A stretch of 42,347 nt of DNA. Origin: Ignavibacteriota bacterium (lineage in GTDB: Bacteria; Bacteroidota; Ignavibacteria; SZUA-365). The notes beneath the pieces were generated by a model. The model made no database searches. It was given only the letters and a program-made list of their open reading frames with translations, and was not told where the DNA came from. Below are positions 18,519 to 36,406 of the stretch, in pieces (positions within the stretch are counted from its first letter, which is position 1; each line of letters starts with the position of its first letter). Location: the NCBI GenBank assembly GCA_016218045.1, contig JACRFB010000044.1:1-42347 (forward strand), read 5' to 3'. The position numbers and the translations under genes are program-made.

Positions 18519-18606
18519 TCGCGTGGGACTCGACGTCATCACAGGAGCATAGCAAGGGTATTTGAAAAAGTCTCCGTTACCTCCGTTCCACCTGTGAGTA
18601 TCCACC
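18519..18606. repeat. Hairpin repeat element with nonamer arms, copy E
   Basis: The same ~90-base unit as copies C and D at 15260-15442: TCGCGTGGGA, TCACAGGAG, then CTCCGTTACCTCCGTT and CACCTGTGAG. It ends at the stop codon of the second VWA gene, exactly as copy D does for the first, so gene and repeat were probably duplicated together. Confidence 0.8.
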
Positions 18607-21596
18607 TACCGCTTCACTACACTCCGCGACAGCACACGCCCCTGCACTGCGGCAGTGACGAAGTACAGACCCGCGGGGTGTGATGAGAGATCGTAGGTCA
18701 CGATCTGTTCGCCGTGTGCCTTGCGCGAGGTGGTGCCGGTGATTGTCTGGCCGAGAACAGAAACGAGGCGGATGTCGGCCGGGTTGTCCGCGGTGCCGCG
18801 CAGTGTTACGGTGAGCTCATTTGTGACGGGATTCGGGTACACCTCGAGCGAAATGGTGTTCGGTGCGGGAACACCTTCGAAGCCGGTGAGTACGAGGTCG
18901 ATGATGTCGGACGCCGATGTGCATCCGTATTCATTTGTGACACGCACCTGATAGGCGCCCTTTGACGTCGCCACAAAACTCTGCTGCACCGCGCCCGTCA
19001 TTCGGCCACCATCTTTGTACCACTGATACGTCTGATACCGCTGTGTTGTGAGTGTGTCGCCCGATCGTGTGATGGTGGGTTTTACGGGCAGCGGTACAAC
19101 GGTTGACATTGCGGTGTCGGAGTACCCGTAACATCCTTCCGCACTTTTTACTCGCACCCACCACGAACCGGAAGTGCGGACGGTTATCGTTCGTGTGACT
19201 TCGCCGGTGTTCCAGAGGTACTCTGCGTATGATCCGGCATCAAGTGCGGCGTATTCGCCCTCGCATATGATATGCGGCCGACGCTGAGGAGAGATGTATG
19301 GCCTGGGCGCCGGCACCATCGCAACCACAACGGGTGTCGCTGTGCCACGGCGTCCGTACTGATCCGTGACGGTGACGAGGTAGCTGCCCGCGCTGCGCAC
19401 GACGATGGTGCGTGTACGCTCGCCGGTACTCCAGAGGTAGCTGCTGTATCCGTCGCCCGCGTCGAGTTCCACACTCCCGCCCGGACAGAGACGCAGCGAC
19501 CCGAGCGGCGTGATGACGGGTGCGGGCGGACCCGTAACTCCCGGAATCAGCATCTCGACCGTGCTGCGGCATATCTCCACAGTGTCGCGCCGCGTCACAC
19601 ACTCGAGCGTGCGGCGTGTGTCGATCGGCTGCTCTGCGCTGCGCACAAACCACAAGGCGCTGCCGGTCTGTCCGGGATCGAGCACCGCCGGAGTGAGCTG
19701 CTTGCGCGCGGTGCCGGGATTGTCGGGTGCGACAAAACTGATGTCGGCCGGCAACAGGAGTTCCACCGTAAGACGGTCCTGCAGCGTCGCCATGGTGTTG
19801 CGCACCACGGCCTGCACGGGTGCGGGATCAGGTGTGTACTTCTTCGTCTGAAGATTGGCGGTGAGAGCCGGCGCGATAAGTTGACATCCGACATCGTACT
19901 CCGATTTTGGGATCGAGATGTCGTGTGTACACTGCCGCGGCAGTCCGTCGTCGTACAGCGTCGTGAAGGTGATACGGGTGCTGCCGGTATCGGAACGCGG
20001 ACGCGCCTGCATGATCCAGGTGGCGGTGGCCTGACCGTTTGGTGGCAGCGTGGAAGGTGTCACGACGATGGTGTCGGTTGCGGGGGATAGCCGCAGCAGA
20101 TCGGCGCTGTTGTACCCGATCACAACACGTGTGTTGACCGCATTCTTGAGTCCCGCGTTCTGCAGATGCGCGGAAACCTGAATACTGTCGGGCAGGTGCT
20201 TGCCGAGAGGCAACGACCAATCGAGCGCGGCGGGACCGGACGTTGTACATGTCACATCCGGATACCCGCTCGTGAAACACAGGCGCCCGCTCATAAGCGC
20301 GGGACGGAAACAGCCGGCCTCGAATATCCATGAGGTCAGTTGTACGGGAGTGCAGGTGGTGTCGGAGGGCGACCCGACGGGCGTGAAGAGCAGTTCCGCC
20401 AGCAGGGATGGCGCGGGCGCCGACGGCAGATATTTCCGATCTAAGGTTTGTACCGTGACACCGCCTGGAATGGAGGTGATGGTGATGGGAACATTTTCCA
20501 GCAGCGATCCGGGAGGTGTTCGTGCGCCGGTGCAGCGCACCACGTTTTCATCGAAGCGCACCGTGAACGTCGAGCCGTAGAAGATGGATCCGTCGGGAAT
20601 CGGCGTGAACAGTTCCAGCGGCATCGCCATGGTGGAATGCGACCGCAGCGTGTGACTCTGGAAACCGAGTGCCACCGACATGTATGTGGTTGTATCCTTT
20701 AACGCCCTGTAGGTCTTGGTCTTTTTGTCGCTGCCTGCACAAATGTTCTTGACGGAGAGATCGACATTCCGCGTTCCGCCATCCAAACAAGAGGCCTGAT
20801 ACTTGATGCTGCACTCCTGGAAGCCCTCCGCGAGAATGACGAAGATCTCCCGGTAAATCGCGGGCAGATCAGCAGGGTTTGCCGTCTGGTAGTAACGTCC
20901 GCCGGTCAATTCCGCAATATTTTGGAGCGTCCCCGATGACACGCCACTACCAAGACCAATGGTGAAGACCCGTACGCCGTTGCGGTTTGCGAGCGATATT
21001 ATTTCCTGTGGCGACCGGCTGCTGGAGGCGTCGCCGCCATCAGTGAGTGCCACCACTGCGCGACACTCGTTTACGCCGTTGTTGATAATCTCCAGAACGC
21101 CGCTGTAAATGCCGTCCCACGCAGCGGTGGTCCCGCTGGCCGGAAGCGCATTGATGGCATTGTGCAGCAGGTCCTTGTATATAGTCATCGGCTGCGCCAA
21201 GGTTGGCCACGAATTGAACCATAGCACTGCGGCTTCATCTGCGATTCCGTCCATAAGATCCACGAAGGCATTTCCTCCTGCCTTTGCGCCAGCATTGCCG
21301 GCTCCCTGCATCGAACCTGAGGCATCGAATACCAGTGCTGTCGAAAGCCTGCAGTCGAAAGTCTGATCCGGACAGAAGAGTGTAAAATCATGTATCGGCG
21401 CACCGTTCTCGGTCACTGTGACCGCCGATTTGTCGGTGAGCCACACGGGCTGGCCCTGACACCCAACCGTGAAATACAGCTCGATCGTCGGCCAGTTGTT
21501 GGTGACTCGCTTGAAATTGAGCTGCGGCTGCGCCGCAACCGTGAACGGGAACGATACAACAACGGCAATCAGGAAATACCGATACACGGTACGCAT
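18606..21596 (-). CDS. Secreted VWA-domain protein with T9SS type A sorting tail (copy 2)
   Basis: 996 residues from the ATG at 21596, with GGAGGGG upstream. It has the same domain order as copy 1: signal peptide ending Ala-Ala-Gln, VWA domain with MIDAS Asp91-Ala-Ser-Gly-Ser95, cohesin-like sandwich, CARDB-like region, three Ig-like repeats and Por tail. The last 90 residues differ from copy 1 at only a few positions, whereas the VWA domains differ much more, so the tails are either under strong constraint or kept alike by gene conversion. The region just upstream of the start is also almost identical to that of copy 1. An open frame continues 35 codons further upstream but lacks a ribosome site and signal peptide. 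Confidence 0.9.
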   Translation of the reverse strand: MRTVYRYFLIAVVVSFPFTVAAQPQLNFKRVTNNWPTIELYFTVGCQGQPVWLTDKSAVTVTENGAPIHDFTLFCPDQTFDCRLSTALVFDASGSMQGAGNAGAKAGGNAFVDLMDGIADEAAVLWFNSWPTLAQPMTIYKDLLHNAINALPASGTTAAWDGIYSGVLEIINNGVNECRAVVALTDGGDASSSRSPQEIISLANRNGVRVFTIGLGSGVSSGTLQNIAELTGGRYYQTANPADLPAIYREIFVILAEGFQECSIKYQASCLDGGTRNVDLSVKNICAGSDKKTKTYRALKDTTTYMSVALGFQSHTLRSHSTMAMPLELFTPIPDGSIFYGSTFTVRFDENVVRCTGARTPPGSLLENVPITITSIPGGVTVQTLDRKYLPSAPAPSLLAELLFTPVGSPSDTTCTPVQLTSWIFEAGCFRPALMSGRLCFTSGYPDVTCTTSGPAALDWSLPLGKHLPDSIQVSAHLQNAGLKNAVNTRVVIGYNSADLLRLSPATDTIVVTPSTLPPNGQATATWIMQARPRSDTGSTRITFTTLYDDGLPRQCTHDISIPKSEYDVGCQLIAPALTANLQTKKYTPDPAPVQAVVRNTMATLQDRLTVELLLPADISFVAPDNPGTARKQLTPAVLDPGQTGSALWFVRSAEQPIDTRRTLECVTRRDTVEICRSTVEMLIPGVTGPPAPVITPLGSLRLCPGGSVELDAGDGYSSYLWSTGERTRTIVVRSAGSYLVTVTDQYGRRGTATPVVVAMVPAPRPYISPQRRPHIICEGEYAALDAGSYAEYLWNTGEVTRTITVRTSGSWWVRVKSAEGCYGYSDTAMSTVVPLPVKPTITRSGDTLTTQRYQTYQWYKDGGRMTGAVQQSFVATSKGAYQVRVTNEYGCTSASDIIDLVLTGFEGVPAPNTISLEVYPNPVTNELTVTLRGTADNPADIRLVSVLGQTITGTTSRKAHGEQIVTYDLSSHPAGLYFVTAAVQGRVLSRSVVKR

Positions 21597-21639
21597 CACC
21601 CCTCCGATACAATTCGTTCTTTTGAGATTACCCGATGGA

Positions 21640-21725
21640 TGTTGAAAGTAATAACGTGGAAGGTGGAAAGTACAAACATGGAGAAAGTTGAAAGTGGCCA
21701 ATTGGAGAGTAAAAAATTGATTTTT
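21640..21725. repeat. GTGGAAA-type heptamer repeats
   Basis: Loose units of about seven bases (GTGGAAG, GTGGAAA, GTTGAAA) lie upstream of VWA copy 2. A shorter relative lies at 18472-18508 upstream of copy 1. Degeneracy is high. Confidence 0.45.
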
Positions 21726-21786
21726 CTACTTTGGTGCTTTTTCACCTTGCTACTTTGCTACTTTCGACGTGGATACGTGTCACGTG

Positions 21787-24780
21787 TTACTGCTTCACGA
21801 CCTTCGCAGCCACACGCCGCCCATGCACCGCGGCGGTGACGAAGTACAGACCCGCGGGGTGAGTCGAGAGGTCGTAGATAATACTCTGCTCGCCGTGTGA
21901 GCTGCGCAATGCTCTGCCCGCGATCTTTTGCCCGAGTATGGAGATGAGCGTGATGTCGGCCACCTTATCTGCGTTGCCGCGCAGTGTGACGGTGAGCTCA
22001 TTTGTGACGGGATTCGGGTACACCTCGAGCGCAATGGTGCTCGGTGCGGGCATGTCACCGATGGCGGTGCTTGAGAAATCGTACACATCCGATTCTGCAG
22101 TACAGCCGAAGGCGTTCGTCACCCGGACAATGTACCGTCCGCTGTTGCCTGGAACGAAGGTGCGTTTGTCGCCCAGTGCTAACGGCAACCTGTTGAGATA
22201 CCATCGATATGTGGTGGCGGGCTGTGTTGAAAGCGTGTCACCCTGCTGAGAGATGATGGGTTTATCCGGCAGTGGATGCACGACAGTGCGCACCGTGTCG
22301 GAATACCCGACACATCCACGTGCCGTCGTAACACGCACGAACCAGACACCCGCGGTGCGCACCTCCAACGTACGCGTGGTGTCGCCGGTGTTCCAGAGAT
22401 ATCTGGGGTAGGACCCCGGATCGAGGACCACCGAATCACCGAGGCAGATTCCGACCGGCAAGGACAGGCCGAACTGCGGTGCTGGTGCGGGGAGCGTGTT
22501 CACCACAACTGGTGGTGCGGTCGCGTTGCGGCCGTATATATCCGTCACCGTGACATAGTACACGCCTGTGCTGCGCACCGCGAGCATACGTGTACGCGCG
22601 CCCGTATTCCAACTGTAGCGCGAATACCCGGCGCCCGCATCGAGCACGATGCTGTCGCCTTCGCACAACTCATGCGGCCCCTGCGGCGTGATGGCGGGAG
22701 TCAACGGCGGCAGCACGGCGGGAAAATACAGATCGTACACACAGCGGCTGACCACATTGTCGAAGCGGCGCGTGATACATTCCACGGGGATGGTTTTTGC
22801 AACGGTGCTCGGCGCCCGCCGCACAAGCCACTGCCCCACCCCGGTCTGCTGCGGTGACAAAGTGGAAGGAAGCAGAGGACGTCGCGCATTCGACGCGGAG
22901 TCGGGCGTGACGAACTGCAGATCCGAGGGCAGCACCAGCTCGACGCTGAGGGTGGTCTGGTCGCTGGTGGTGTTGTTGAGCACACTGACTGTGACGGGAA
23001 CGGGATCGGGGGAATAGGTCATTCGTACGCTGTCGACAAAGATCGGCGGCGCGGAGATGGTGCACTCCAAGCTGGACTCGGCCCGCGGAATGGTAATCGT
23101 GCGTGTACACACGACGGGTGCATGATTGTCGAACAGCGCCGTGAATGTGATACGACTCGTATCTGGAAGGGCGTGCGGGCTCGCGCGCAACAGCCATGCG
23201 GCCTGCGAACTACCGTTCGCGATGATCGTGGTGGGACTCGCATCCAGCGTATCCTTCAACGGCACGAGCAGATCGAAATCGGTTTTATCGTATTGCAATA
23301 CCACCCGCGTCCCGAACGCCGTCATCGTTCCGACATTGTTCAGTTGCATCATCACGGTGAAGCTGTCGGGCTGATAGACGTTTTTCTGCGGCGACCATGT
23401 CAGTGCGGCGGGTGCCAACACATCACAGATCACTTCGGGGCTGCCGGGGCGGATACACAGGCGCCCGCCCGAAAGGACAGGACGGAAACATCCCGCATCA
23501 AAGATCCACGATTCGATGCTTATGTCGGAACACACTGTGTCCGTGAGTCGCGGGTTCTGCGCTTCGAAGAGCAATTCGGCGAGCAATGCGGGGGTGGAGG
23601 CGACCTCGAGCACCTTCCGGTCCATAATCTGCAGCACAGCGCCGTTCTGCGACGGTGATATCGTGATCGGCAGGTTTTCGTAGATGGATCCGGGGGGAGT
23701 TCGGATCCCTGAGAATTTCAGGACCGTCGGATCGAATCGGACAGTACACGTCGCGCCATACAATATGTCCTGCGGCACGATGGGGCTGCGCAATTCCAGT
23801 GGCAGGGCGATTGATCCCGTCCCCTGCATGGCGGTCTTGCTTGCGATGCCGATGGCGAGCGGCGAATAGGTCGTTGTATCCTTCGGCGCCTTGTATGATT
23901 TCACCTCGGTGTCGTTGCCACCGCACACGTTCAAGACCGACAGTTCCACTGCGCGCTGGCTTCCATCCGTGCAGCGGCTCTGATAGGTGATGAGACACTC
24001 CTGAAATGACGAAAAAATGATCGTGGATATTTCCTGGTATATCGCCGTCAATTGTGACGGGCTCGGAGTTTCGTAATAACGGCCACCGGTCGTTGTCGCG
24101 ATATTCTGCAGAATGGAGGATTGTATGCCTGATCCCAGACCGATGGTAAATATGCGGATGCGGTTCCTCATGGCCAGGGAGATCGTCTCCGCCGGCGACC
24201 TGGAACTCGAATTGTCACCGCCGTCGGTTAAGACGATCACCACGCGGCAGGGATTCACGCCATTGCTGATCAGCTCCTGTACACCGTAGTACATCCCATC
24301 CCACACTGCCGTCGCGCCACTGGCCGGCAGAGCGTTCACAGCGTTGTGCAGAAGGTTCGTATACACGGTCATCGGCTGGGCGAGTGTCACGGTGGATGTG
24401 AACCAGAGTATGGCCGCCTGATCGTTGACCCCATCCAACAGATCGATAAACGCGTTTCCGGCCGCTTTTGCACCCGCGTTGCCCGCCCCTGACATGGAAC
24501 CGGATGCGTCGAAGACAAGCGCGACCGAGATGGCGCAGCGAATAGAGGGATCGGGACACCAGATCATAAAATCGTGTATCGGCACACCGTTTTCAGTGAC
24601 GGCCATATGAGATTTGTCGGTGAGGTACAGCGGGGAGCCGTTACACGCGACAGTGTAATACAACTCGATCGTCGGCCAGATGGTGACAACCCTTTTGAGG
24701 TTGAGCTGCGGCTGCGCTTCTCCGACGGCGGGGAGAAGGAACAGAATCGTGAGCAGGGAAATTCGAGACAAAAGCCGCAT
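21787..24780 (-). CDS. Secreted VWA-domain protein with T9SS type A sorting tail (copy 3)
   Basis: 997 residues from the ATG at 24780, with GGAGGTGAC directly upstream. Signal peptide to about residue 22 (Glu-Ala-Gln), the shared Pro-Gln-Leu-Asn-Leu-Lys-Arg start of the mature protein, VWA domain with MIDAS Asp91-Ala-Ser-Gly-Ser95, cohesin-like sandwich, CARDB-like region, three Ig-like repeats and a Por sorting tail. It is the most divergent of the three: its C-terminal repeat region and tail differ from copies 1 and 2 at many positions. The mature N-terminus Trp-Pro-Thr-Ile-Glu-Leu is kept in all three. It is the first of the three in transcription order. Confidence 0.9.
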   Translation of the reverse strand: MRLLSRISLLTILFLLPAVGEAQPQLNLKRVVTIWPTIELYYTVACNGSPLYLTDKSHMAVTENGVPIHDFMIWCPDPSIRCAISVALVFDASGSMSGAGNAGAKAAGNAFIDLLDGVNDQAAILWFTSTVTLAQPMTVYTNLLHNAVNALPASGATAVWDGMYYGVQELISNGVNPCRVVIVLTDGGDNSSSRSPAETISLAMRNRIRIFTIGLGSGIQSSILQNIATTTGGRYYETPSPSQLTAIYQEISTIIFSSFQECLITYQSRCTDGSQRAVELSVLNVCGGNDTEVKSYKAPKDTTTYSPLAIGIASKTAMQGTGSIALPLELRSPIVPQDILYGATCTVRFDPTVLKFSGIRTPPGSIYENLPITISPSQNGAVLQIMDRKVLEVASTPALLAELLFEAQNPRLTDTVCSDISIESWIFDAGCFRPVLSGGRLCIRPGSPEVICDVLAPAALTWSPQKNVYQPDSFTVMMQLNNVGTMTAFGTRVVLQYDKTDFDLLVPLKDTLDASPTTIIANGSSQAAWLLRASPHALPDTSRITFTALFDNHAPVVCTRTITIPRAESSLECTISAPPIFVDSVRMTYSPDPVPVTVSVLNNTTSDQTTLSVELVLPSDLQFVTPDSASNARRPLLPSTLSPQQTGVGQWLVRRAPSTVAKTIPVECITRRFDNVVSRCVYDLYFPAVLPPLTPAITPQGPHELCEGDSIVLDAGAGYSRYSWNTGARTRMLAVRSTGVYYVTVTDIYGRNATAPPVVVNTLPAPAPQFGLSLPVGICLGDSVVLDPGSYPRYLWNTGDTTRTLEVRTAGVWFVRVTTARGCVGYSDTVRTVVHPLPDKPIISQQGDTLSTQPATTYRWYLNRLPLALGDKRTFVPGNSGRYIVRVTNAFGCTAESDVYDFSSTAIGDMPAPSTIALEVYPNPVTNELTVTLRGNADKVADITLISILGQKIAGRALRSSHGEQSIIYDLSTHPAGLYFVTAAVHGRRVAAKVVKQ

Positions 24781-24873
24781 GTCACCTCCGGATATGTGCA
24801 TCGTCACGCAACAGCAAGGGAGTCTCCCGTTTCCCGTTCAAAGACAAAATACTCGAAAAATCGATGACTCATT

Positions 24874-24896: not shown

Positions 24897-25120
24897 GACA
24901 ATCGAGCGGACGAATCCTGACCGAAGGGTCACAATATTCGAAGCGCCACATACAGGCACCGCCGGTGCGCGTGTGATCGAGGGCTCGGAAGTGATCTTGG
25001 AAAAAGTCGATCCTGCTCAGGGCGGGGCTCCCGATACGCGACGACGTCCGGACTCCGCCACCGTCCGGAAATATTTTCACGCGGGTCGGGGATGGTCGAA
25101 GCGCCCACGGAAAAGCGGCT

Positions 25121-25138
25121 CCGGAAACACGTTTCCGG
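25121..25138. promoter_or_regulatory. Palindrome upstream of the HATPase gene (possible operator)
   Basis: CCGGAAAC and GTTTCCGG flank a two-base centre, a perfect 18-base palindrome 113 bases before the HATPase start. A second, ten-base palindrome, ACACATGTGT, lies at 25178-25187. Dimeric repressors bind sites of this kind. Confidence 0.4.
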
Positions 25139-25250
25139 TTATTGTGTTTTCTCGAGGATACGGATGTGGATAATTCGACACATGTGTATCTTTCCCCGTG
25201 TGTTTCGACGCACACCGTGGCATCCAACATGTGAGGATATCATCACCTTC

Positions 25251-25694
25251 ATGATACAAGCAGCAGCATATCCCGAATTACGCGCATCCATCGTCATCCC
25301 CTGCCGCCGCGGCGAGTACGCCGCGTTGCGCGACGCCACCGCGTGGCTGAACGCGCGCTGCGATGCCCTCCGCGCGTCCAGGGACGCCCGCGAACGCCTC
25401 GATTTCTGTCTCAACGAAGTGTTGGCAAACATCATCGACCACGGCCTGGACGACGAACACGAACACCGCGTGACCGTCAGTCTCGATGTTGCCGCGCAGG
25501 GTTACACACTCACCCTTCGCGACGACGGCCGGCCCTTCGATGTGGCGCGGTCCGACACCTACACTACGCCGCAATCCCTGCAGGAAGCCGGCTCACGCGG
25601 CTACGGGCTGCATCTCGTTCACTCCCTCGCCACCCGCGTAGAATACCAGCGCGACGGATCGTGGAATGTTGTAGCGGTGTTTGTCGGCCCCTGA
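25251..25694 (+). CDS. RsbW/SpoIIAB-like HATPase (anti-sigma factor type) protein
   Basis: 147 residues from the ATG at 25251; a longer open frame upstream is not protein-like. It has the GHKL ATPase boxes: N box Leu-Asn-Glu-Val-Leu-Ala-Asn-Ile-Ile-Asp-His-Gly, G1 box Arg-Asp-Asp-Gly-Arg-Pro-Phe-Asp, and G2 box Gly-Tyr-Gly-Leu-His-Leu-Val. Length and order match the serine-kinase anti-sigma family (RsbW, SpoIIAB), which phosphorylate an antagonist and hold a sigma factor or another partner. No antagonist (STAS) gene or PP2C gene is next to it. A GAGG lies 14 bases before the ATG, further than usual. Its partner is unknown. Confidence 0.85.
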   Translation: MIQAAAYPELRASIVIPCRRGEYAALRDATAWLNARCDALRASRDARERLDFCLNEVLANIIDHGLDDEHEHRVTVSLDVAAQGYTLTLRDDGRPFDVARSDTYTTPQSLQEAGSRGYGLHLVHSLATRVEYQRDGSWNVVAVFVGP

Positions 25695-26162: not shown

Positions 26163-27497
26163 TCACTTCTTCGTGATAATCACCTCGGTGCGGCGATTGA
26201 GCCGACGGCCGATTTCGGTGTCGTTGGGCGCGATGGGAAGCGACTTCCCCATGCCGCGCGTGGTGATGCGCGACGCATTGATGCCGCGGTCCACCAGGTA
26301 CTTTTTCACGGCGCGCGCGCGCGCGTCCGACAGCGCGATGTTGTATTCGTCGCTGCCGAGGAAATCGGTGTGGCCGCGGATCTCGACATGCATCGTCTGA
26401 TACGATTTGAGCATGTTGAGGATGTTGCGTAATTCCGATACAAAAGTCTGATCGAACGTCGCCTGGTTGAACTCGAAGAGAATGTTCTCGAGCACAAACT
26501 TCTTGTCGACTTCGAGGATAGGCACGCGCTGGTTCACGACCACCTCGTCCTGCATGTTGCGGATCTCGAGTGTGATCGCCTCGGGCGGCACTTCGGCCTT
26601 GATGGTGTACTTCACCGCGTACAGGTTGGTGATCGACGCGCTGAACTCGTCCAGTATGGAACTGAAGTCCTGCACGATATCGAACTGCTTGCCGTAGGTG
26701 GCGTCGGTCATCTGGCGGTAATCGGTGAGCCGCGGCGGCGAAATCGAGAAGAGCCGTATGTTCTTCTTCTTGAGGAAATCGACCATCGACTTCGTCGTGT
26801 ATTCGGTCTTCCCGTCGCCCGCGTCTCCCTTCTGGTGGAACGGCGCGTCGGTGATCAGGATGAAGATGCGCTGGGCCGACTGGCGGAAACGCAACGTGGT
26901 GCCTTCGGACAGGCCCTCGAGCGCGTTCTCGGGATTGTCCCCTCCCCCGCCGATCGCGATGTTGTCGATGTAGGTGATGAAGACGTTGACGTCCTCGGTC
27001 AACTCCTTGCGCCGCTCGATGCGGTCGCTGAAGGTGATCAGGCCGAGACGGTAATCGACGCCGCGCTGCGACAGGCGCTGCGTGAATTCGAAGATGTTGT
27101 TCTTGACCTCGTTCACCTCCTGCCGCATGCTGCCTGTCTGGTCCACCACAAACACGATGTCGACGGGCACGCTGTTGCTCGCCGAAATGGTGCTGATGTC
27201 CTGGATGGACACGGGCATCCCGTCCTGATACAGGATGAGGTCGGTCTTTTTTAATCCCGAAAAATAATTGCCGACCGAATCGCGCGCGTCGATGATCACG
27301 TCGGCCACGGGGAAGCGGCTGATGTCGACGGAACGGATTTCCACGGTGACCCTCTCGGGCCGCGTGCTGCGGGCCGAGATGATGGTCGCCTTTTTCAGAC
27401 TGTCGGCACCACCCGCTGCAAGAAGTTGCGGCAGGAGCAGCGCCAGAAGCACTGTCAGGCGCGCGGCGGGAAACTGTGGTGAAGCGATGGTCGCCAT
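26163..27497 (-). CDS. VWA-domain protein with C-terminal OmpA domain
   Basis: 444 residues from the ATG at 27497, which begins a signal peptide (to about residue 30). A beta domain comes first, then a VWA domain (about 113-290) with MIDAS Asp119-Gln-Thr-Gly-Ser123 and Ile-Thr-Asp-Ala-Pro-Phe. The C-terminal 105 residues are an OmpA-like peptidoglycan-binding domain: Val-Glu-Ile-Arg-Gly-His-Thr-Asp, Asn-Ile-Ala-Leu-Ser-Asp-Ala-Arg-Ala, and a final Asn-Arg-Arg-Thr-Glu-Val. It would sit in the periplasm or outer membrane and hold the cell wall. It closes the T9SS-like cluster, separated from the barrel gene by 138 bases and a hairpin. A PorE-like anchoring role is possible but not shown. Confidence 0.88.
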   Translation of the reverse strand: MATIASPQFPAARLTVLLALLLPQLLAAGGADSLKKATIISARSTRPERVTVEIRSVDISRFPVADVIIDARDSVGNYFSGLKKTDLILYQDGMPVSIQDISTISASNSVPVDIVFVVDQTGSMRQEVNEVKNNIFEFTQRLSQRGVDYRLGLITFSDRIERRKELTEDVNVFITYIDNIAIGGGGDNPENALEGLSEGTTLRFRQSAQRIFILITDAPFHQKGDAGDGKTEYTTKSMVDFLKKKNIRLFSISPPRLTDYRQMTDATYGKQFDIVQDFSSILDEFSASITNLYAVKYTIKAEVPPEAITLEIRNMQDEVVVNQRVPILEVDKKFVLENILFEFNQATFDQTFVSELRNILNMLKSYQTMHVEIRGHTDFLGSDEYNIALSDARARAVKKYLVDRGINASRITTRGMGKSLPIAPNDTEIGRRLNRRTEVIITKK

Positions 27498-27557
27498 GTA
27501 TGCAGTCCGCGGAGCGCGGCGGATGAACTGTCGAATCGCATGAAGGAGAGATGGAAA

Positions 27558-27583
27558 GGGCGATCCGCCGAGACGGACCGCCC
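27558..27583 (-). terminator. Possible terminator or attenuator hairpin
   Basis: On the minus strand GGGCGGTCCG, a six-base loop and CGGATCGCCC form a 10-bp stem with one G-U pair, followed by TTTCC. It lies 52 bases after the barrel gene stop codon and 60 bases before the VWA-OmpA start. The T run is short, so it may only reduce read-through. Confidence 0.4.
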
Positions 27584-27635
27584 GTTCACAACGTTCACGT
27601 GCGGCCCGTGACGCGGGCACACGCGCGGGTCCGCA

Positions 27636-29399
27636 TCAGAACACGAAGTTCATGCGGAGGCCGGGGACGATCATCTCGCCGTGTTCCCACGGCTCGGGAT
27701 CGCGGAACACCACGCGCGAGTATTTCACTTCCGCGCGCAGCCACTGGAAGATGTGGAAGTACACTTCGGCCATGAGTCCGCCGTTGAAGTACTGCAGCGC
27801 CGTGCCGTAGCGGGTCTTGCCACGATGGTCGTAGCTGAGGCGCACGAAGGCGTCGAGCGTGCCGTGACCGGCAAGCACCTTCACGCTGTCAAAAACGGTG
27901 GAATCGGAGAACAAAGTATTGTCTTCCTTCCAGCGCCATGTGCGGCGGGCTTCGTTGAACTTCTGATAGCCGAGACCGACATGCAGGCGCAGTCCGTCGA
28001 GCATGAAACCGAGATCGCGCCAGTAGTACGCGGTGGCCGACGCGGTCATGTAGTAGAAGGTCAGACGGCGGAGCATCGCCTTGTCGGGATTGCCGGCCGC
28101 GTTGACGGGAGGATTAAATTCATGGTCGCGGAAGAAGGGCTTCATGCCCGTGCCGTTCAGGATTTCTCCGTCGGCATTGGTCACCTTCTTTGTGCCGAAC
28201 TTGTTGAGTCCGAACGACACAAACGCCGCGGCGCCGAGGCCGTAAGCGTCGGTGCCGAGCGGCGCGGAGGTGTTGCTCAACTGGCGGAAGTACTCGCCCG
28301 AGACGCCCCAGGTGCCGTTAGTGCGGCGATTCTTGAGAAGCGGCAGATCGGTGTTGATGCTCTCGTCGCCCCAGGTGAAGGGAATCGAGGGACCGAGTTT
28401 GAAGTACTCGGTGGACGAGGGCTCGTACACGAACATGGTGTTCCACTGCGGTCCGTACAGGAACGGCAGATTCACCCAGTCGTTTCCGATCTTGAGTTCG
28501 AAGCCGGCGCGGATGCGCGAGGGCGCGAGGCCGACGTTGTTGTTCATCGGATTGTCGGTCTCGAGCGTCCACATGAAACCGCCGCCGAAAGGAATGCTGA
28601 CGGTGGCTTCCGCGTTGTCGGGACGCGGCTGAAGCACGCCCGTCTCCACGCGATGCGGGTATTCGGACGGATTCGCGACGCGGTCGTACAGTTCCGAGGT
28701 CAGCACGTCGCGCAGGTTCTTCTTGCCGACGATGCGGTAATCCTCGAAGTCGGGATTCTCGGCGTTCGCGCTGAAGCTGGCCGAGGATTCCTCCTCGCCG
28801 CCGCGGGCGCGGGCCTTCTCGATGATGACGGCGATGAGCGTCTCCGGATCACGCGGGCTGCGGATGATGCGGATGCGCGCGCGGCCCGTGAGAATGCGGT
28901 CGGCAATCTCCACCGCCTCGTCGTCACGCAGATCGTCGCGGTTGTCGCGGACCTTGCGCATGATTTCGAGCACGGTGGGTTCGTCCATCACAATCCACTG
29001 CGGGAAGTATTTCTGGATGAGCGGATCGAGCGTGGTGATGGCGCGGACGAGCACGCGGAGACGGCTGTTCTCGTCCTGGAACTGCTTGAGACCGATGTCG
29101 AGCAGACGCACGTAGTTCTGGCGGTTCTCATCCGTCGGGGCGTAGGCCACAACTTCGTTCACGAGTTTTTCCGACCAGACGATGCGGCGCTTGAGATCCT
29201 CTTCGTCGAAGTTTTCGCTCGCCATGAAACGCATGATGGCGTCGATCGAGGTCAGCGCGTCGCCCGATGGCTGGGCCTGGACGGGCGCGGGCCGGAACAA
29301 CGTCAGCGTGCAGGCGACAACCAGCAGCGCGAGGGCTGTTTTAATGGCGTTCATGCGGGTACCCTGGAATTCCGAAAGTGTGAAAGTGCGAGTCGTCAT
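27636..29399 (-). CDS. Outer-membrane beta-barrel protein of the T9SS-like cluster (barrel 2)
   Basis: 587 residues from the ATG at 29399, which has a strong GAGGAGG site; a second ATG at 29354 starts directly at the signal peptide (Met-Asn-Ala-Ile-Lys ... Val-Gln-Ala-Gln). The mature N-terminal ~200 residues are charged and helical, with Arg-Arg-Ile-Val-Trp-Ser-Glu and Asp-Arg-Ile-Leu-Thr-Gly-Arg blocks. The rest looks like amphipathic strands of a barrel, ending Leu-Arg-Ala-Glu-Val-Lys-Tyr-Ser and a terminal Phe. The C-terminal strands resemble those of the protein at 29411-31435, so the two are paralogues in the barrel part. The position is where porK/porN-type genes lie in known T9SS loci, but I see no GldN or GldK motif. 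Family not recognised. Confidence 0.7.
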   Translation of the reverse strand: MTTRTFTLSEFQGTRMNAIKTALALLVVACTLTLFRPAPVQAQPSGDALTSIDAIMRFMASENFDEEDLKRRIVWSEKLVNEVVAYAPTDENRQNYVRLLDIGLKQFQDENSRLRVLVRAITTLDPLIQKYFPQWIVMDEPTVLEIMRKVRDNRDDLRDDEAVEIADRILTGRARIRIIRSPRDPETLIAVIIEKARARGGEEESSASFSANAENPDFEDYRIVGKKNLRDVLTSELYDRVANPSEYPHRVETGVLQPRPDNAEATVSIPFGGGFMWTLETDNPMNNNVGLAPSRIRAGFELKIGNDWVNLPFLYGPQWNTMFVYEPSSTEYFKLGPSIPFTWGDESINTDLPLLKNRRTNGTWGVSGEYFRQLSNTSAPLGTDAYGLGAAAFVSFGLNKFGTKKVTNADGEILNGTGMKPFFRDHEFNPPVNAAGNPDKAMLRRLTFYYMTASATAYYWRDLGFMLDGLRLHVGLGYQKFNEARRTWRWKEDNTLFSDSTVFDSVKVLAGHGTLDAFVRLSYDHRGKTRYGTALQYFNGGLMAEVYFHIFQWLRAEVKYSRVVFRDPEPWEHGEMIVPGLRMNFVF

Positions 29400-29410
29400 G
29401 GCTTCCCTCC

Positions 29411-31435
29411 TCAGTTGAACAGTGAAGGAAGTCCGAGGCGGAACCTCGGCGTGATCATGAAGACGCTGTTCTCGGATTCCCACACTTCCTTGCTGCGGAG
29501 CAGGAACGAGTACTTCGCTTCCACACGCAGCCATTCGGTGAGTTCGAGCCACGCATCGGTCATAAGGCGTCCGGTGAAGTACTGGATGCCGAGACCGTAA
29601 TTGTTTTTCGCACCGGTATTGATGAAGTCGAAACGGATGAACACGTCGAAGAGATCCTTCTCGCGTTCGAACCAGTACAGCTTGTTCTTCTCGACCTGCT
29701 TCATGGTGTTGTCGGCCCACTTCACGACTTCGGTGTTCGCCGCGAAGTAGTTGCGCTCGACGCGCTGGAAGCCGCCGCCGACGCTGAGGCGCACGAGCAT
29801 GTTCGGATCGTGGATGCGGTCCTTGAACATGATCGGGTAGTACACGAGCGCGGCGGTGGAGATGTTGAAGAAGTTGTTCTTGTACACGCGATCGTCGATC
29901 ATCGTGTTGACGAGCTTCATGCTGTGATACTTGTCGGCCCCGTCGAAACGGTCGGTGATCGTGATGCTGCCGCCGAGCGAGAAGGGGAAACCGAAGGTGA
30001 AGTCGAACGCGATGTTGTAGCCCATCGGCGAGTAGAGCAGCGAGTTGTCATACGACAGCGGCGTCGGGAAACCGTCGGCCGTCATGTTCATCGGCATGAC
30101 AAGGCCCACGCTCATCTGGTGTTTGTAGCCGATGCTCAGCGTCGACATGCCGGAACTCCAGCGCGGCATCCCGATTTCGGGATTGCCCATGGCGTAGGCG
30201 ATGCGCCAGTCGGGTGCAAAGCCCGAACGGGCCGGCGAACGGAGTTCGATCTTGTCGAGGGACAGGTCGAGCACCACGAAGTCGGCCGGCTGGCGGCCCG
30301 GATTCATGACCACGTCGATGGTCTGCGAGAAGGTGCCCGCCTGCGACTGGATGAGCAACTGGCCCGGTGTCTCGTACGGCGAATTGCCGACGTACTCGAA
30401 ACGGATGTTCTGCTTGCCGCTTGTGTCGGCTTTCGGTCCGAGCATGAGCGGCGTCCGCGTGTCGACGCGGAAGGACTCGCTGTTCGATCCGATGAATTCG
30501 ATCTTGTTGATCTGGATCTGGCTGTTGTCGGGATTGGTGATGCGCACGCGGCCGCCCTTGGGATCGTCGAGCAGTATGGGCACTTCGGCTTTAAAGAAGG
30601 GTCCCGCTGCCTCGGCCTGCACCGGAAGCTGATTCGTGCGGAGTGTGTCCTTGATGTTCCAGAAATCCGAGAAGCGGCTGGTGGCCGTCTCGAGATCGGC
30701 GTTGTTCATGACAATGAAGGGACCGCGTTTCTCGGCCGCGAATGCGGGCTGGGGAAGCGGTTCTTCATTGACGCGGCGTGCGAGCACGTCGTCGTACAGC
30801 GTCTCGTCCTCGGTCTTGATCGCGCTCCACAGGTCCATCCCCGAAAGGATGTACTGTTTCAGCGTCGAGCTCTGACCGCGGGCGCGGGGGCGGCGTGCGC
30901 CTTCCTCGTCCTCTTCCTCGTCCTGACGCGGTTCGGGACAGGTCTCCGTCTTCACCACGCGCACTTCGATGAGGTCGTAGGGATTGATTCCCTGCTGTTC
31001 GATTTCCTCGGGTGTCGCTTCAACCACGTACACTTCGACGCCGCTGATCGACGCGCCGCCCTGGCCGGTGGGACAGGGGACGGTCGATGCGCCGTTGAGG
31101 TGATACTCTTCGTCGAGCAGTCCGAGTTCGTTCGCGCGTTTGAACACCTTGTCGAGGCGTTCCTGCAGCGCGGCCGGACGCAACCGGTACCCCTTCACCT
31201 GCGTGAAATCGTAGCCGGTGGCGAGGTTGCCGCGGCGGCGGCCGGTTGTCGGCAGCGGCTTGTCTTTAGCGGCCGAACGGATGAGCTGGTTCTTTTCCTG
31301 AAGATCGTTGTATTCCTTCTTCAGATCGTTCTGCTTGGTTCGCACCTGGTCGGGTTGCGCCTTCGCGGGAATCACGCTCACGGCTCCGACAAAGACGAAG
31401 CAGAGAAGTAACGTGCGAGCGATTGTGCTCTTCAT
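29411..31435 (-). CDS. Outer-membrane beta-barrel protein with ASH-like domain (barrel 1)
   Basis: 674 residues from the ATG at 31435 with a GAGG site; an in-frame ATG at 31483, four bases after the preceding stop codon, is the alternative. Signal peptide ends Ala-Lys-Ala-Gln. Then come a coiled-coil-like Lys/Glu segment (to ~70), an acidic run (Asp-Glu-Glu-Glu-Asp-Glu-Glu, about 175), and a beta domain at about 290-385 with Ile-Thr-Asn-Pro-Asp-Asn ... Phe-Arg-Val-Asp ... Gly-Gln-Leu-Leu-Ile-Gln-Ser, which resembles ASPM/SPD-2/Hydin (ASH) folds. The C-terminal ~270 residues look like a barrel ending Val-Glu-Ala-Lys-Tyr and Leu-Phe-Asn. It could span periplasm and outer membrane and meet the GldM-like shaft. 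Its stop overlaps the ribosome site of barrel 2. Confidence 0.7.
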   Translation of the reverse strand: MKSTIARTLLLCFVFVGAVSVIPAKAQPDQVRTKQNDLKKEYNDLQEKNQLIRSAAKDKPLPTTGRRRGNLATGYDFTQVKGYRLRPAALQERLDKVFKRANELGLLDEEYHLNGASTVPCPTGQGGASISGVEVYVVEATPEEIEQQGINPYDLIEVRVVKTETCPEPRQDEEEDEEGARRPRARGQSSTLKQYILSGMDLWSAIKTEDETLYDDVLARRVNEEPLPQPAFAAEKRGPFIVMNNADLETATSRFSDFWNIKDTLRTNQLPVQAEAAGPFFKAEVPILLDDPKGGRVRITNPDNSQIQINKIEFIGSNSESFRVDTRTPLMLGPKADTSGKQNIRFEYVGNSPYETPGQLLIQSQAGTFSQTIDVVMNPGRQPADFVVLDLSLDKIELRSPARSGFAPDWRIAYAMGNPEIGMPRWSSGMSTLSIGYKHQMSVGLVMPMNMTADGFPTPLSYDNSLLYSPMGYNIAFDFTFGFPFSLGGSITITDRFDGADKYHSMKLVNTMIDDRVYKNNFFNISTAALVYYPIMFKDRIHDPNMLVRLSVGGGFQRVERNYFAANTEVVKWADNTMKQVEKNKLYWFEREKDLFDVFIRFDFINTGAKNNYGLGIQYFTGRLMTDAWLELTEWLRVEAKYSFLLRSKEVWESENSVFMITPRFRLGLPSLFN

Positions 31436-31486
31436 ACGGGTGCCTCGTGGGTCGTGTGATGCTTTTTCGATAGTCGCTTTCATGGA

Positions 31487-33082
31487 TCACTCGGCGGGGA
31501 TGAGGGTGATGTCGTACGTTTCCGACGTGCCCCCTGCCGTGATCTTGATCACCGCGGCGGTGCCATCTTTCTTGACCTTGCCCTTCAGATAGAACTTCAC
31601 CTGGGTGCCGTTCTCGAAAGGCGGTGTTGCCGCGATGGGACGGATGTCGGGCGTATCCGCGAGCAGATCGTTGCCGTTCTCGTCCTCGACGGTGACGCGA
31701 ATGTCGCTCGCCGACACGTTGCGGATGTTGTCCTTGGTGCAGCGGCCGCAGCGGTCCGTGATGAATTCGAACGGTGTGTTGATCGGATACTCGCCGCCCT
31801 TGTTGAACAACGGCTGGATGTTGACCGGCGGTGTGGAGACGGTGTACTGGAAGTCCGACGGCATAAGCTGCTTCTTCGTCGAATCGAAGTACACGAAGTA
31901 CTGACGTCCGCGGTACATCGCGTTGATCGCGAGTGTCTTCGCCGTGGGCGGCACCTTGTAACGCACGATGCTGCCGTTTCCGCTCTGCACTTCCTTCTCG
32001 TCGACCAGCAGTTTCCACGAGTACGAACCGACGTCCTCGAGGCCCTGCACGTTGATGTTCATTTCGAACGATTCACCCGCGAAGGCCTTGCCCGGACGGC
32101 GTTTCGCCAGCACGGGATCCTTCACGATGACGTTGAACTGGATGGGACGCGAACGGCTCAGAGCGCCGGCGCCGCGTTTGTCGTACGCTTCGGCCGTCAC
32201 GGTCTTTTCGCCCGCTTCATTGAAGGTGCCCGACCACGCCCACTTGCCGCGCGCGGGATCGTCGCTGCGCCACGGATTCTCGTTGGCCTGCGGGCTCAGG
32301 GCTCCGCCGCCGCCGCCCACGTTGATCGACGAGATCTTGTCGACCGTGGTGCCGCGCACCTTGATTTCGTTGTAGGTCGGGAAGCCCACCGCGGTCACGA
32401 TCGGGTCGGCCTGGATCTGCAACTGGTCATAGGCCTCGGAGATCACCTCGACCGTGAAACGCGCCGGATCGAGCTGTTCGGACCGCTGGATGAACGACTC
32501 GAGCGGCGTGCCCTTCAGGGCCTGATCGAAGTCGATCGCGCGCTGGATTTCCTCGCGCCGGAACTCGAGAGAACCCACCTTGATCACGGCCTCGCGGCCG
32601 ACCTCGGGTTTGAGTTCCACGCGGTTCGTGCCGGCCTTGACCCAGAAGTCGAAGCGCCCCGCGCCCTGATCCGCCTTCCAGTTGAAACGATAGATGCGCT
32701 CGCCTGTGGTGGACTCGAGCGAACTGTCGCGGATGTCGGCCGGGTACTTCAGGATCTGCGTCACCTGGCCGTTCTTCGACACTTCCACAACCGGAGGTGT
32801 GGTGACTTCGTCACGGTCGCCCAGACCCTTCACGCGGATCGTGAAGTAGCGCGACTCGTTGACCTTGAGCTGGTTGTCGCCCGCCGCTGCAACGGTGGGC
32901 ATGTTCTTCAGCAGCTCGAGAATGATGCGCCGGTTCTTCTCTTCAAGGGCGCGCTGCTGTGCGAGCAGATGCTCCTCCGCATCGTCGCGTTCGACGATGA
33001 TGATAAGGAGCTCGCAGATGACGGCCAGGTACAGAAAGAAATAGACCTGGTATTTTTTGTAGTGATCGCCTGATTTGGCCAT
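31487..33082 (-). CDS. GldM/PorM-like protein (M2)
   Basis: 531 residues with an AGGAGG site before the ATG at 33082. Residues 1-13 are cytoplasmic and basic, one membrane helix spans about 14-30 (it contains Glu24), and a coiled-coil stretch follows to about 60. The rest is a series of beta domains, as in the four-domain periplasmic shaft of GldM/PorM. Length (GldM about 513) and topology fit. A Cys445-Gly-Arg-Cys448 pair in the last third could form a disulfide. In T9SS, GldM joins the inner-membrane GldL ring and transmits motion to the outer-membrane complex. It follows its GldL-like partner by 37 bases. Sequence likeness to GldM is weak and the call rests on topology, length and neighbours. 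Confidence 0.65.
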   Translation of the reverse strand: MAKSGDHYKKYQVYFFLYLAVICELLIIIVERDDAEEHLLAQQRALEEKNRRIILELLKNMPTVAAAGDNQLKVNESRYFTIRVKGLGDRDEVTTPPVVEVSKNGQVTQILKYPADIRDSSLESTTGERIYRFNWKADQGAGRFDFWVKAGTNRVELKPEVGREAVIKVGSLEFRREEIQRAIDFDQALKGTPLESFIQRSEQLDPARFTVEVISEAYDQLQIQADPIVTAVGFPTYNEIKVRGTTVDKISSINVGGGGGALSPQANENPWRSDDPARGKWAWSGTFNEAGEKTVTAEAYDKRGAGALSRSRPIQFNVIVKDPVLAKRRPGKAFAGESFEMNINVQGLEDVGSYSWKLLVDEKEVQSGNGSIVRYKVPPTAKTLAINAMYRGRQYFVYFDSTKKQLMPSDFQYTVSTPPVNIQPLFNKGGEYPINTPFEFITDRCGRCTKDNIRNVSASDIRVTVEDENGNDLLADTPDIRPIAATPPFENGTQVKFYLKGKVKKDGTAAVIKITAGGTSETYDITLIPAE

Positions 33083-33119
33083 GGTTCATTCCTCCTGATC
33101 GTTCGCGTGAGCGCGACGC

Positions 33120-33974
33120 TCAGCGACCGACCATGCCGCGCGATTTGTGAGCGGACTCTTCGAGGTCGTGTTCCAGCGCATCCAGTTTGGCTTTCACTTC
33201 GGACCAGGTAAGCTCGGTGCCGGGCACGCGCGAGCCGTCACCCTCGGTTTCATCCTCTTCCTTCTCGTACCAGGTGGTGAGACCGAGGAGGCAGAGCACC
33301 GTGATTTCGACGATGATCGCGATGATGATCAGGTCGGGCTGATGGGCGACCATGAACTTCACACCGCGGAGACCGATGTTGAGGATCAGGAACGCGGTGC
33401 CGATGAAGGCCACGGCCGTGATGTTGTTCTTGTACTGCGGGATGAAGTGGTTGTGCATGTACATCGCGAAGGCCTTGCGGACGCGGCCGTGGCTGTCCTG
33501 CAGGCATTTCTTCGGCCACGTCATCAGATGGTCGCCGAAGCCGAGGTTGTTCGGATTGTCGCTGATGTTCTTCGAGAGACCCGTGGCCTTCAGTATCGAA
33601 CCCACGAGCGCGTGCAGATTCCCGCGGAACAGGAAGAGTCCGAACGGCGTGAAGAAGAGCACGATGATGGACATCGACACGATGGCCACCGTGTAAATCA
33701 TCGCGAGATTCAGGATGAACGTCGAGATACCGATTTTCACGACGCGTTCGGTGAGGGCGCCACCGGGGAGCAGTTTTTCGAGTTCCTCGGCCTTTGCCTC
33801 ACTCAGACCGCGCTGCTTGCCTTCGTCCTTGAGAAATGCTTTGTACTGTTCGAGCGTCATCATTTCCTCTTTCGACGACTGGGCGAAGCCGGCGCCGGCG
33901 GGAATGAGGAACGCGCAGATGAGCAGCAGAACGAAGAAAGGCAACGTTCCGTGTGATCCGATGATTCGTGACAT
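33120..33974 (-). CDS. GldL/PorL-like inner-membrane motor protein (L2)
   Basis: 284 residues from the ATG at 33974 with GAGGAGG upstream. A signal-peptide-like helix (about 10-31, ending Ala-Gln), a soluble linker, and long hydrophobic segments at 80-116 precede a cytoplasmic loop (117-183). Two closely spaced helices follow at about 184-203 and 214-232. Between them Gly-Val-Lys206-Phe-Met-Val-Ala-His210, and in the second helix Ile-Val-Glu223-Ile, match by eye the Lys and Glu that sit in the GldL transmembrane core and are needed for proton-driven rotation. The tail is charged and probably coiled-coil. GldL normally has only the two helices, so the N-terminal half is an addition. An ExbB/TolQ-like relation is an alternative. 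A long open frame upstream is not used. Confidence 0.6.
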   Translation of the reverse strand: MSRIIGSHGTLPFFVLLLICAFLIPAGAGFAQSSKEEMMTLEQYKAFLKDEGKQRGLSEAKAEELEKLLPGGALTERVVKIGISTFILNLAMIYTVAIVSMSIIVLFFTPFGLFLFRGNLHALVGSILKATGLSKNISDNPNNLGFGDHLMTWPKKCLQDSHGRVRKAFAMYMHNHFIPQYKNNITAVAFIGTAFLILNIGLRGVKFMVAHQPDLIIIAIIVEITVLCLLGLTTWYEKEEDETEGDGSRVPGTELTWSEVKAKLDALEHDLEESAHKSRGMVGR

Positions 33975-34059
33975 GGGATAACCTCCTCGGAAAACAATGA
34001 ATATTGAGCTCCCCGGCCTGGCCGGGAAACGCGTTTTAGAGTGATATGTAGTCGACAGT

Positions 34060-35595
34060 TTATTCATACAACGTAAATTCCTTCTCGACCTGCGTCTTGC
34101 GCGCGCGGATTTCGAGGCGCACGCGGGCGGGCACCGCAACGGTGTCCTGCTCGTTGCCGCGACGCACGGAGATCTGGAAACGTCCCATGCTCAGCATGGT
34201 GAGATCGGTGCGGATCAGGTCTTTTTTCCTGTATCCGACTCCCCCGCTCACGCGCCATAATTTTACGTCGACATCCTTGAGACTGGCCACGGGACGGTCC
34301 TGCTCATAGCGCGGATCGCTGAACATACGCGCCGTGAACGAGATGGGCTGCAGCAGGCGAGGACGCGCGGGCAGCTCGACGTTGATGTGTGTGGGAGGAT
34401 CGACCACGCGGAACGTGAACGTGGACGTGCCGCCTTCGTAGGACAGCGGCGAGATGTACTCGTACGGTTTGCCGCGGTAAGTGGCGCGCACACGCAGCAC
34501 CTTGCCCGCGAAGTTGTTCGGCAGATGGTAGCGGATCTGCGTCCCCACACCCGTGTCCTTCACCGATGCCTTGCTGCCTCCGGCCACTTCGAGCAGCTCC
34601 CAGCGATATGCCCTGGTGTCGGTAAGGCCCGCGACGGAGATGGAACACGCGAGATCCTCGCCCGCGTACACATACTCGGGCACCGCGCTATCGAGGAAAG
34701 GTTCGACGCTATTGACCACGAACGACACCTGCAGCACGTCGACAACCTGTCCCGTCTTGTCGATGCGGAACTCCACCGTCACGGTGTCGCTGCCGCCGCG
34801 CGCGGTGCCGGACCAGTGGTATTCACTCAGCGAGGTCGAATGGCTGTGCAGCTCGATTGCGCCGTAACCGCGCACGATGCGCGCCGACGACACCGGCAGG
34901 GGGTGCGTCACGGTGATGGTGTTGTTCACCTGATAGCCGCGCGCTGTCGCGATGCTCTGCGTCTCGACGGCTGCGCGCATGCGCGCCCACGCGAAGGTGC
35001 GGGTCGCGGAAGTGTCGCGCACGTGCACGCGCAGCGAGGTACGCGCATGTTCGAGCCGACGCACGAGTTCCGCGTCGACGGCGCCGGATGAGAACGACAC
35101 GTCGCCGTAATGATACAGACCGTCGTCGCCCAGGCGTATGCGGCGCGCGTGAGCATCGAAGGTCAGCACGTAGTCGCCGGTCTGGTCGAAGCGGCACTCG
35201 AAGGGGAAGGCCACGGTGCGGTCGCGCAACTCTCCGACACCGCGCCGTCCGTGCACCGCGACGGCCGCGGGCGAGATGAGCGTGTTGTCGAGAGAGAGGG
35301 ACATCAGTTCAACCCCCACGGAATCACGAGGCCCGATGTCCGCAACCACGATGCGGTCGCGATACGTGCGGGCGCCGGGCGCGACGCGTCCGCGGCTGTC
35401 GGCATCGACGTACACGGTGACGACGCTGTCGGGGAGTTCGAGCGTGAGCGGGCGGAGGAAGGAGCGCACCACGACTTCGGAGCGCGCGCGCAGAACCGCT
35501 TCCCGCGTGTCGCGTTCGCGCGAGACAATGACGAACACGCCGACTGCGCAGAGATACAGCACAAAGAAGACATCGAAACGTTTTCGCCTGACCAC
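34060..35595 (-). CDS. Second GldM/PorM-like protein (M1)
   Basis: 511 residues from a GTG at 35595 with a GAGGA site five bases upstream; the longer open frame overlaps the preceding gene and lacks a ribosome site. The start Met-Val-Arg-Arg-Lys-Arg-Phe-Asp-Val-Phe-Phe-Val-Leu-Tyr-Leu mirrors the start of M2 (basic residues, then Phe-Phe-Leu-Tyr-Leu). One membrane helix spans about 7-23, then come a short charged helix and beta domains to the end. It shares the Tyr-Arg-Gly-(R/K)-x-Tyr block and nearby strands with M2, so the two are paralogues. It follows L1 by 31 bases. Expected to form a periplasmic shaft together with L1. Confidence 0.6.
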   Translation of the reverse strand: MVRRKRFDVFFVLYLCAVGVFVIVSRERDTREAVLRARSEVVVRSFLRPLTLELPDSVVTVYVDADSRGRVAPGARTYRDRIVVADIGPRDSVGVELMSLSLDNTLISPAAVAVHGRRGVGELRDRTVAFPFECRFDQTGDYVLTFDAHARRIRLGDDGLYHYGDVSFSSGAVDAELVRRLEHARTSLRVHVRDTSATRTFAWARMRAAVETQSIATARGYQVNNTITVTHPLPVSSARIVRGYGAIELHSHSTSLSEYHWSGTARGGSDTVTVEFRIDKTGQVVDVLQVSFVVNSVEPFLDSAVPEYVYAGEDLACSISVAGLTDTRAYRWELLEVAGGSKASVKDTGVGTQIRYHLPNNFAGKVLRVRATYRGKPYEYISPLSYEGGTSTFTFRVVDPPTHINVELPARPRLLQPISFTARMFSDPRYEQDRPVASLKDVDVKLWRVSGGVGYRKKDLIRTDLTMLSMGRFQISVRRGNEQDTVAVPARVRLEIRARKTQVEKEFTLYE

Positions 35596-35626
35596 ACGTG
35601 CGTCCTCATTCTCGCTCTTGACCCGC

Positions 35627-36406
35627 CTACGCCCTGCCCGCTTCCAGCGCGGAAAGACGCCGCGCGATGGACTCGAGGGATTCCCGCGCTTCGCGCAGGG
35701 CTTCAATGTTCTGTTGCATGAGCGCGTCAGAGCGGCCGCTCGTCGTTTCGAGGAAACCGCGCAGAAGGAGGTTCGTCTCCTGCATCGTGTCGCTGTACTG
35801 GCGGATGTTCTCGGAGTTCACCTTCGAGAGGTGGTCGGTGAGCCGCGTCAGCAGCACGTCCTGACGGATGTCGGACTGTGAAATAAGACGAAATAGATCC
35901 GATACGGCGTTTGTCATCTCGCGCACCGTGCTGTTCATGGAACTGAGCAGGGTCTCGGAGGCGCCGAAGGCGTTCGATCCCGCCGCGTCTTCGTTGGGAC
36001 TGTAGGCGGTCACGAAGGCGAGGAGCAACAGCAGCAGGGCCTGTATCGAAAAGGCGACCAGCGCGAAGGTCTCGTCCACATATCCCGCGAGGTATACGAC
36101 CAGCGAGATGAGAACCAGCACCGCGCCGCCGTACACGAGGCCCGACACGTAGTTGTAGTAGTAGCGCCCGACGATTTCCTCGAAGAATACACGCGTGCCC
36201 AGCTTCACGCCGAGGCTCGTCTCGAAACGCACACGACGGCCGTCGCTGAATTGGATCTCGGTGCCACGGCGGCACAGGCGCCAGCAGTCGAGCACGGTGC
36301 CGAACTCCAAAGTATTCTTCACGCGCCTGTCATGATAAAAATCATGCAGAAGGCGGCGGCCTTCGGGGATTTCAAGATCCTTGAGTGTTTCTGACGTGTT
36401 GAACAA
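35627..36406 (-). CDS. GldL-like membrane/coiled-coil protein (L1) lacking motor residues
   Basis: 259 residues. The only possible start downstream of an in-frame stop is a TTG at 36406, without a clear ribosome site. A soluble 80-residue N-terminus precedes two helices (about 88-108 and 113-135) joined by a four-residue loop, and then a coiled coil from about 155 to the end. Helix-loop-helix plus coiled coil is the GldL layout, and Tyr-Gly-Gly-Ala-Val-Leu ... Ile-Gln122-Ala-Leu-Leu resembles GldL by eye. At the position of the motor Glu there is Gln122, and at that of the Lys a Tyr. It may therefore be a non-motor relative that joins L2 in a mixed ring. It is the first gene of the cluster. 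Confidence 0.6.
   Translation of the reverse strand: MFNTSETLKDLEIPEGRRLLHDFYHDRRVKNTLEFGTVLDCWRLCRRGTEIQFSDGRRVRFETSLGVKLGTRVFFEEIVGRYYYNYVSGLVYGGAVLVLISLVVYLAGYVDETFALVAFSIQALLLLLLAFVTAYSPNEDAAGSNAFGASETLLSSMNSTVREMTNAVSDLFRLISQSDIRQDVLLTRLTDHLSKVNSENIRQYSDTMQETNLLLRGFLETTSGRSDALMQQNIEALREARESLESIARRLSALEAGRA

Follow-up and report, generated by a model that had tools for sequence, protein, structure and literature searches.

A seven-gene cluster of an Ignavibacteriota bacterium encodes a probable GldLM-related motor with two L–M pairs and predicted outer-membrane barrels

In a 42,347-nt stretch of DNA from an Ignavibacteriota bacterium (SZUA-365; assembly GCA_016218045.1, contig JACRFB010000044.1), hereafter the window, seven consecutive minus-strand genes (26163-36406) form a cluster that is reasonably likely to be an operon for a trans-envelope motor. 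GldLM (PorLM) is the proton-driven motor of type IX secretion and gliding; the motor proposed here would belong to a divergent branch of that family, specific to the class, and act on outer-membrane barrels. Its relationship to GldLM is probable. Observed were the gene order and its conservation, paralogy within the cluster, protein topology, a conserved transmembrane (TM) glutamate, remote similarity to GldL and GldM, and restriction to the class. The open reading frames (ORFs) lay at the place, on the strand and in the order given by an initial annotation of the window, L1-M1-L2-M2-B1-B2-VO:

L1, 35627..36406, minus strand: 259 amino acids (aa), two-TM hairpin and cytoplasmic coiled coil, GldL-like, Gln122
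M1, 34060..35706, minus strand: N-terminal TM segment and beta-rich periplasmic region, of which domains 2-3 align to D2-D3 of GldM; start codon uncertain
L2, 33120..33974, minus strand: 284 aa, signal or TM segment, TM segment, cytoplasmic loop and GldL-like hairpin, Glu223
M2, 31487..33082, minus strand: TM segment and coiled-coil helix (8-59), followed by a series of immunoglobulin-like (Ig-like) beta domains; CxxC at 445-448
B1, 29411..31435 (or 31483), minus strand: signal peptide, N-terminal coiled coil and beta domain, predicted C-terminal outer-membrane barrel
B2, 27636..29399, minus strand: signal peptide, helical periplasmic N-terminal domain, predicted outer-membrane barrel
VO, 26163..27497, minus strand: signal peptide, VWA domain, C-terminal OmpA (peptidoglycan-binding) domain

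Likely starts were 33974 (L2), 33082 (M2), 31435 or 31483 (B1), 29399 (B2, with an AGGAGG ribosome site) and 27497 (VO); ribosome-site-like sequences lay upstream of L2, M2 and B2. TM segments and signal-peptide-like starts were read from hydropathy, which gave L1 the TM hairpin only and L2 an N-terminal signal or TM segment plus three further TM segments. M1 and M2 each had a single N-terminal TM segment, and B1, B2 and VO had signal-peptide-like starts. Among the seven proteins, VO alone passed curated Pfam or NCBIfam cut-offs, with matches to OmpA (2.7e-21) and VWA (1.9e-13). The B1 barrel was called from sequence only, and the B2 model was of low confidence (predicted local distance difference test, pLDDT, 39).

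The claim of two L and two M genes was borne out. M1 and M2 were paralogs (phmmer E 1e-17 to 1e-18; hhalign 100%), and L1 and L2 were related at the profile level (hhalign 96%). B1 and B2 were also paralogs (phmmer E 1e-10; hhalign 98.7%), which the initial annotation had not proposed.

For comparison with known motors, GldL, GldM and GldN profiles were made from Bacteroidota loci located with TIGR03517. In hhalign against the GldL profile, L1 reached 76% and L2 44%, and their conserved TM glutamate aligned with the position of GldL E49, an essential residue (PMC8986121). This glutamate (Glu223 in L2), whose presence was read from the sequence, was near-invariant across 23 L proteins. When 136 ORFs with at least two TM segments were each scored singly against the GldL profile, the L proteins took the top 21 places. 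Searched against the whole PDB, the L1 profile gave seven weak matches, which included GldL (7sax; E 3.6) on the correct hairpin. Reversed, column-shuffled and local-shuffled profiles served as score controls. The L1 profile scored 43 against GldL, compared with 17 when reversed, at most 17 after column shuffling and a mean of 22 after local shuffling (30 shuffles).

The M proteins gave a second line of similarity. An M1-type profile built from other families was colinear with GldM 217-412, that is, with D2-D3, which have been assigned to residues 233-405 (PMC5790014). It scored 46 against GldM, compared with 22 for the reversed profile and no more than 27 after local shuffling. The best two of 145 ORFs with an N-terminal TM segment that were scored against GldM were M proteins, the first being M1 of the window. 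The cluster thus shares with GldL/GldM (PorL/PorM) adjacent L and M genes, a TM hairpin whose second helix bears a glutamate, M proteins with one N-terminal TM segment and a multi-domain beta-rich periplasmic rod, and remote profile matches to the hairpin of GldL and the D2-D3 domains of GldM. In contrast to GldL/GldM, it falls below all curated cut-offs and carries two L–M pairs in one operon, extra TM segments in L2 and in the related L3, Ig-like domains predicted in M2 in place of the helical D1, and barrels and a VWA-OmpA protein as partners instead of GldK/GldN.

Several results weigh against the assignment to GldLM. Similarity between TM hairpins can arise from composition, and one of the 30 locally shuffled L1 profiles reached 42. 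Because this nearly equals the true score, real homology between the L proteins and GldL is only probable. No L or M protein exceeded any GldL or GldM cut-off. The GldL models TIGR03513 and PF22827 listed no window protein up to E 1, and TIGR03513 had no match in the organism's own genome; TIGR03517 and PF12080/12081/21601/21602 gave no curated GldM match among the window proteins. PF22827 and these GldM Pfam models did recognise true GldL and true GldM. The TM glutamate is lost in the L1 of the window itself, where Gln122 (CAG, 36041-36043) occupies its position; the other 11 of 12 L1 sequences have Glu. M2 alone showed no signal against GldM (hhalign 2%), and its structure model (pLDDT 76; predicted template modelling score 0.46) comprised a TM/coiled-coil helix and Ig-like domains, without a helical D1. 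A fold search with this model returned many generic Ig strings only, so the absence of a GldM match there is uninformative. PDB searches with single L2 and M2 sequences and with a profile of the M alignment gave no match, the B1 profile gave one chance match only, and the A4 profile search was dominated by coiled-coil chance matches. The proposed likeness to GldL/GldM therefore stood for the L1- and M1-type proteins in the controlled remote-profile tests, was weak for L2 and was undetectable for M2 alone. We also considered L1 as a generally dead motor partner and rejected this, as all L1 sequences but that of the window keep the TM glutamate.

We weighed whether the cluster might instead encode an envelope-maintenance motor of the Tol-Pal or MotAB type that is unrelated to GldLM, the GldL likeness being convergence of charged TM hairpins. 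The logic of a membrane ring with a single-TM partner is common to the cluster and to MotAB/ExbBD/TolQR, and the cluster operon includes an OmpA-type peptidoglycan-binding protein, the domain in VO being of OmpA/Pal type. The additional N-terminal TM segments of L2 and L3 recall ExbB/MotA topology, and the lack of a GldM match for M2 would fit as well. A gene for an MltG-like transglycosylase adjoins L1-M1 in several genomes (loci L132, L134, L135, L140 and L141; confirmed with NCBIfam for L132, judged from sequence for the others). However, L1, L2 and five relatives had no MotA/TolQ/ExbB (PF01618-type) or MotB/ExbD match up to E 1, and neither an OmpA nor a TonB/ExbD domain exceeded the cut-off in the M proteins. 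GldL was among the PDB profile matches listed, whereas MotA, TolQ, ExbB, MotB and ExbD were not, and the M1-type match to GldM D2-D3 also argues against this explanation. We consider it unlikely.

The distribution of the cluster was determined in 61 genomes of the Ignavibacteria/Chlorobiota-like class (G000-G060) and in a phylum-wide set of 395 genomes. In families f1 (G001-G011) and f3 (G013-G015), the seven-gene order was kept wherever the contig was long enough. Since protein identity there was only about 50-60%, the order is not due to chance. A whole-genome search with L2 found matches in 33 of 61 relatives. L was detected in 33/61 and M in 34/61 class genomes, and the two sets of genomes were nearly identical. 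Across the phylum, matches to the L profiles were essentially confined to the class, except for two marginal ones, and canonical GldM was detected outside the class only, the reverse of L/M. A scan of named genomes with the L1 alignment retrieved relatives in metagenome-assembled genomes of Ignavibacteria, Bacteroidetes or Chlorobiota, one of them SZUA-365; the same type of scan with the single M2 sequence found no relative. Genomes carried up to four L genes. In the genome of the window, C53 carries another L–M pair and C1 a solitary L with four TM segments.

Among less closely related families, the genes were divided between module A (L1-M1) and module B (M2-B1-B2, with or without VO). Module A occurred in families f5, f16 and f17 as L1-M1 alone or with two barrels: it was solitary at L133, L137, L134, L140 and L141, and stood ahead of two small barrel-like genes at L110/L135 and L132. 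The module B order was found in families f5, f12, f14 and f17, as M2-B1-B2-VO (L144, L145), M2-B1-B2 (L143) or L-M-B1-B2 (L138, L139); in the L144 and L145 genomes, the L genes were located away from the module. Barrels of the B1/B2 type accompanied M2-type genes more constantly than any other partner. Two genomes (G039, G017) held both modules at separate places. As the modules are encoded apart in other families, the operon of the window represents two co-occurring modules joined together. Many M2-type proteins share a conserved CxxC motif in their distal domain (445-448 in M2 of the window); M1 has none. The M2 distal region was also found as stand-alone genes for secreted or lipoprotein-like proteins (L147:9374-10501, L142:7422-8255).

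In the motor that we propose, the L subunits would assemble into a proton-conducting ring that encloses the single TM helices of M. M would span the periplasm as a rod of Ig-like domains, contact B1/B2 and pass movement to them, B1/B2 being the outer-membrane partners that are moved or gated. VO may tie the machine to peptidoglycan. Units A (L1-M1) and B (L2-M2-B1-B2-VO), joined in the window, occupy separate loci elsewhere in the class, often within one genome, and therefore probably cooperate or act as two motors on related tracks. A more specific version, which we put forward tentatively and with some doubt, is a trans-envelope motor that is sister to GldLM and separate from the type IX secretion system (T9SS), in which two L–M motors drive the paralogous barrels and are possibly coupled via the distal CxxC of M2.

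The initial annotation had suggested either a variant T9SS or a second, related rotary machine. Under the first of these, the cluster would be the motor of the T9SS in the class. SprA was present in 60/61 class genomes, including every carrier of L/M, and lay at C1:308165 in the organism's own genome. Canonical GldM (TIGR03517), GldL_N (PF22827) and GldN (PF19841) were found over cut-off in 0/61 class genomes; the PF19841 model recognises true GldN, and its search gave no match in any control genome. A canonical porKLMN set was likewise not found elsewhere in the genome of the window, where the GldL, GldM and GldN models had no match and GldK was not searched. Together with the similarity of L/M to GldL/GldM, these findings favour a T9SS motor, as do the T9SS-tail proteins directly downstream. 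In agreement with the initial annotation, there are three of the latter in the window: tandem paralogous VWA proteins of about 1000 aa (15440-24807, minus strand) with TIGR04183 T9SS type A tails.

On the other hand, L/M went undetected in about half of the class genomes that carry SprA. With SprA near-universal and L and M confined to 33 and 34 of the 61 genomes, SprA has no obligatory partner in L/M, unless the versions of the missing lineages are too diverged to detect. The presence of as many as four L genes in one genome also speaks against a T9SS motor, the cluster showed no linkage to SprA or to other genes of the T9SS, and B1, B2 and VO had no detected T9SS counterpart. As had been stated initially, no GldK, GldN or PorP homolog was found within the cluster by Pfam/NCBIfam scans and hhalign. 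B1/B2 resemble PorP/SprF as predicted outer-membrane barrels in a motor operon but had no PF11751 match, the single weak match of the genome lying elsewhere (C1). VO resembles PorE in its C-terminal OmpA domain, the only part matched by the PorE model (75 versus a 600-bit cut-off), and differs from it by its VWA domain and the absence of PorE-specific domains. A variant T9SS is thus not established; we regard it as possible but rather doubtful, and a second machine is equally compatible with these data.

Such a second machine, apart from the T9SS, might serve gliding, surface transport or the movement of adhesins, the motor driving lateral movement or gating of B1/B2. The constancy of the barrels as partners of M2-type genes is consistent with this, and the patchy distribution and copy number are unlike those of a core secretion component. 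A single motor of this kind is already known to be common to T9SS and gliding (PMC12635249). Against it, no adhesin was found to be conserved alongside the cluster, and the T9SS-tail neighbours were not kept in other f1 genomes. We consider this explanation quite possible, if short of probable. Confidence in the T9SS motor and in the second machine overlaps with that in the general proposal of a divergent GldLM-type motor, as both are narrower versions of it.

The adjacent T9SS-tail genes were dismissed as part of the system owing to their lack of conservation in other f1 genomes. An identification of B1/B2 as GldN was discarded because the B2 match to GldN (31%) was mostly an alignment of signal peptides. 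In T9SS and gliding, outer-membrane proteins are attached to GldK by disulfides (PMC12635249); an equivalent coupling, as in SprF/PorG-GldK, was rejected since the B1/B2 barrels have no conserved cysteine.

No published description of the cluster was found in the open-licence literature searched, in which GldLM is described solely in connection with the T9SS of Bacteroidota. The GldLM family would be extended by a diverged branch that has two L–M pairs and new outer-membrane partners, and to our knowledge few ion-driven rotary motors are known. Such a branch would also bear on how SprA-bearing Ignavibacteria-like bacteria without detected canonical GldL/GldM/GldN energise their envelope machines. 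About half of the class genomes encoded SprA, yet had neither detected L/M nor a canonical GldL/GldM/GldN match.

Some further neighbours were noted. In family f2, a gene for a C-terminal fragment of M2 is immediately followed by one (L142:8359-10806) for a homolog of the VWA/T9SS-tail proteins. At L134:9578-15379 and L140:9617-15489, a gene for a protein of about 1650 aa, followed by one for a barrel-like protein of about 280 aa, is divergent from L1-M1; the large protein has a weak T9SS tail and, in L134, choice-of-anchor D repeats. Beside the cluster, a small plus-strand ORF of the window (25092-25694) resembles, by eye, an RsbW/anti-sigma-type ATP-binding kinase.

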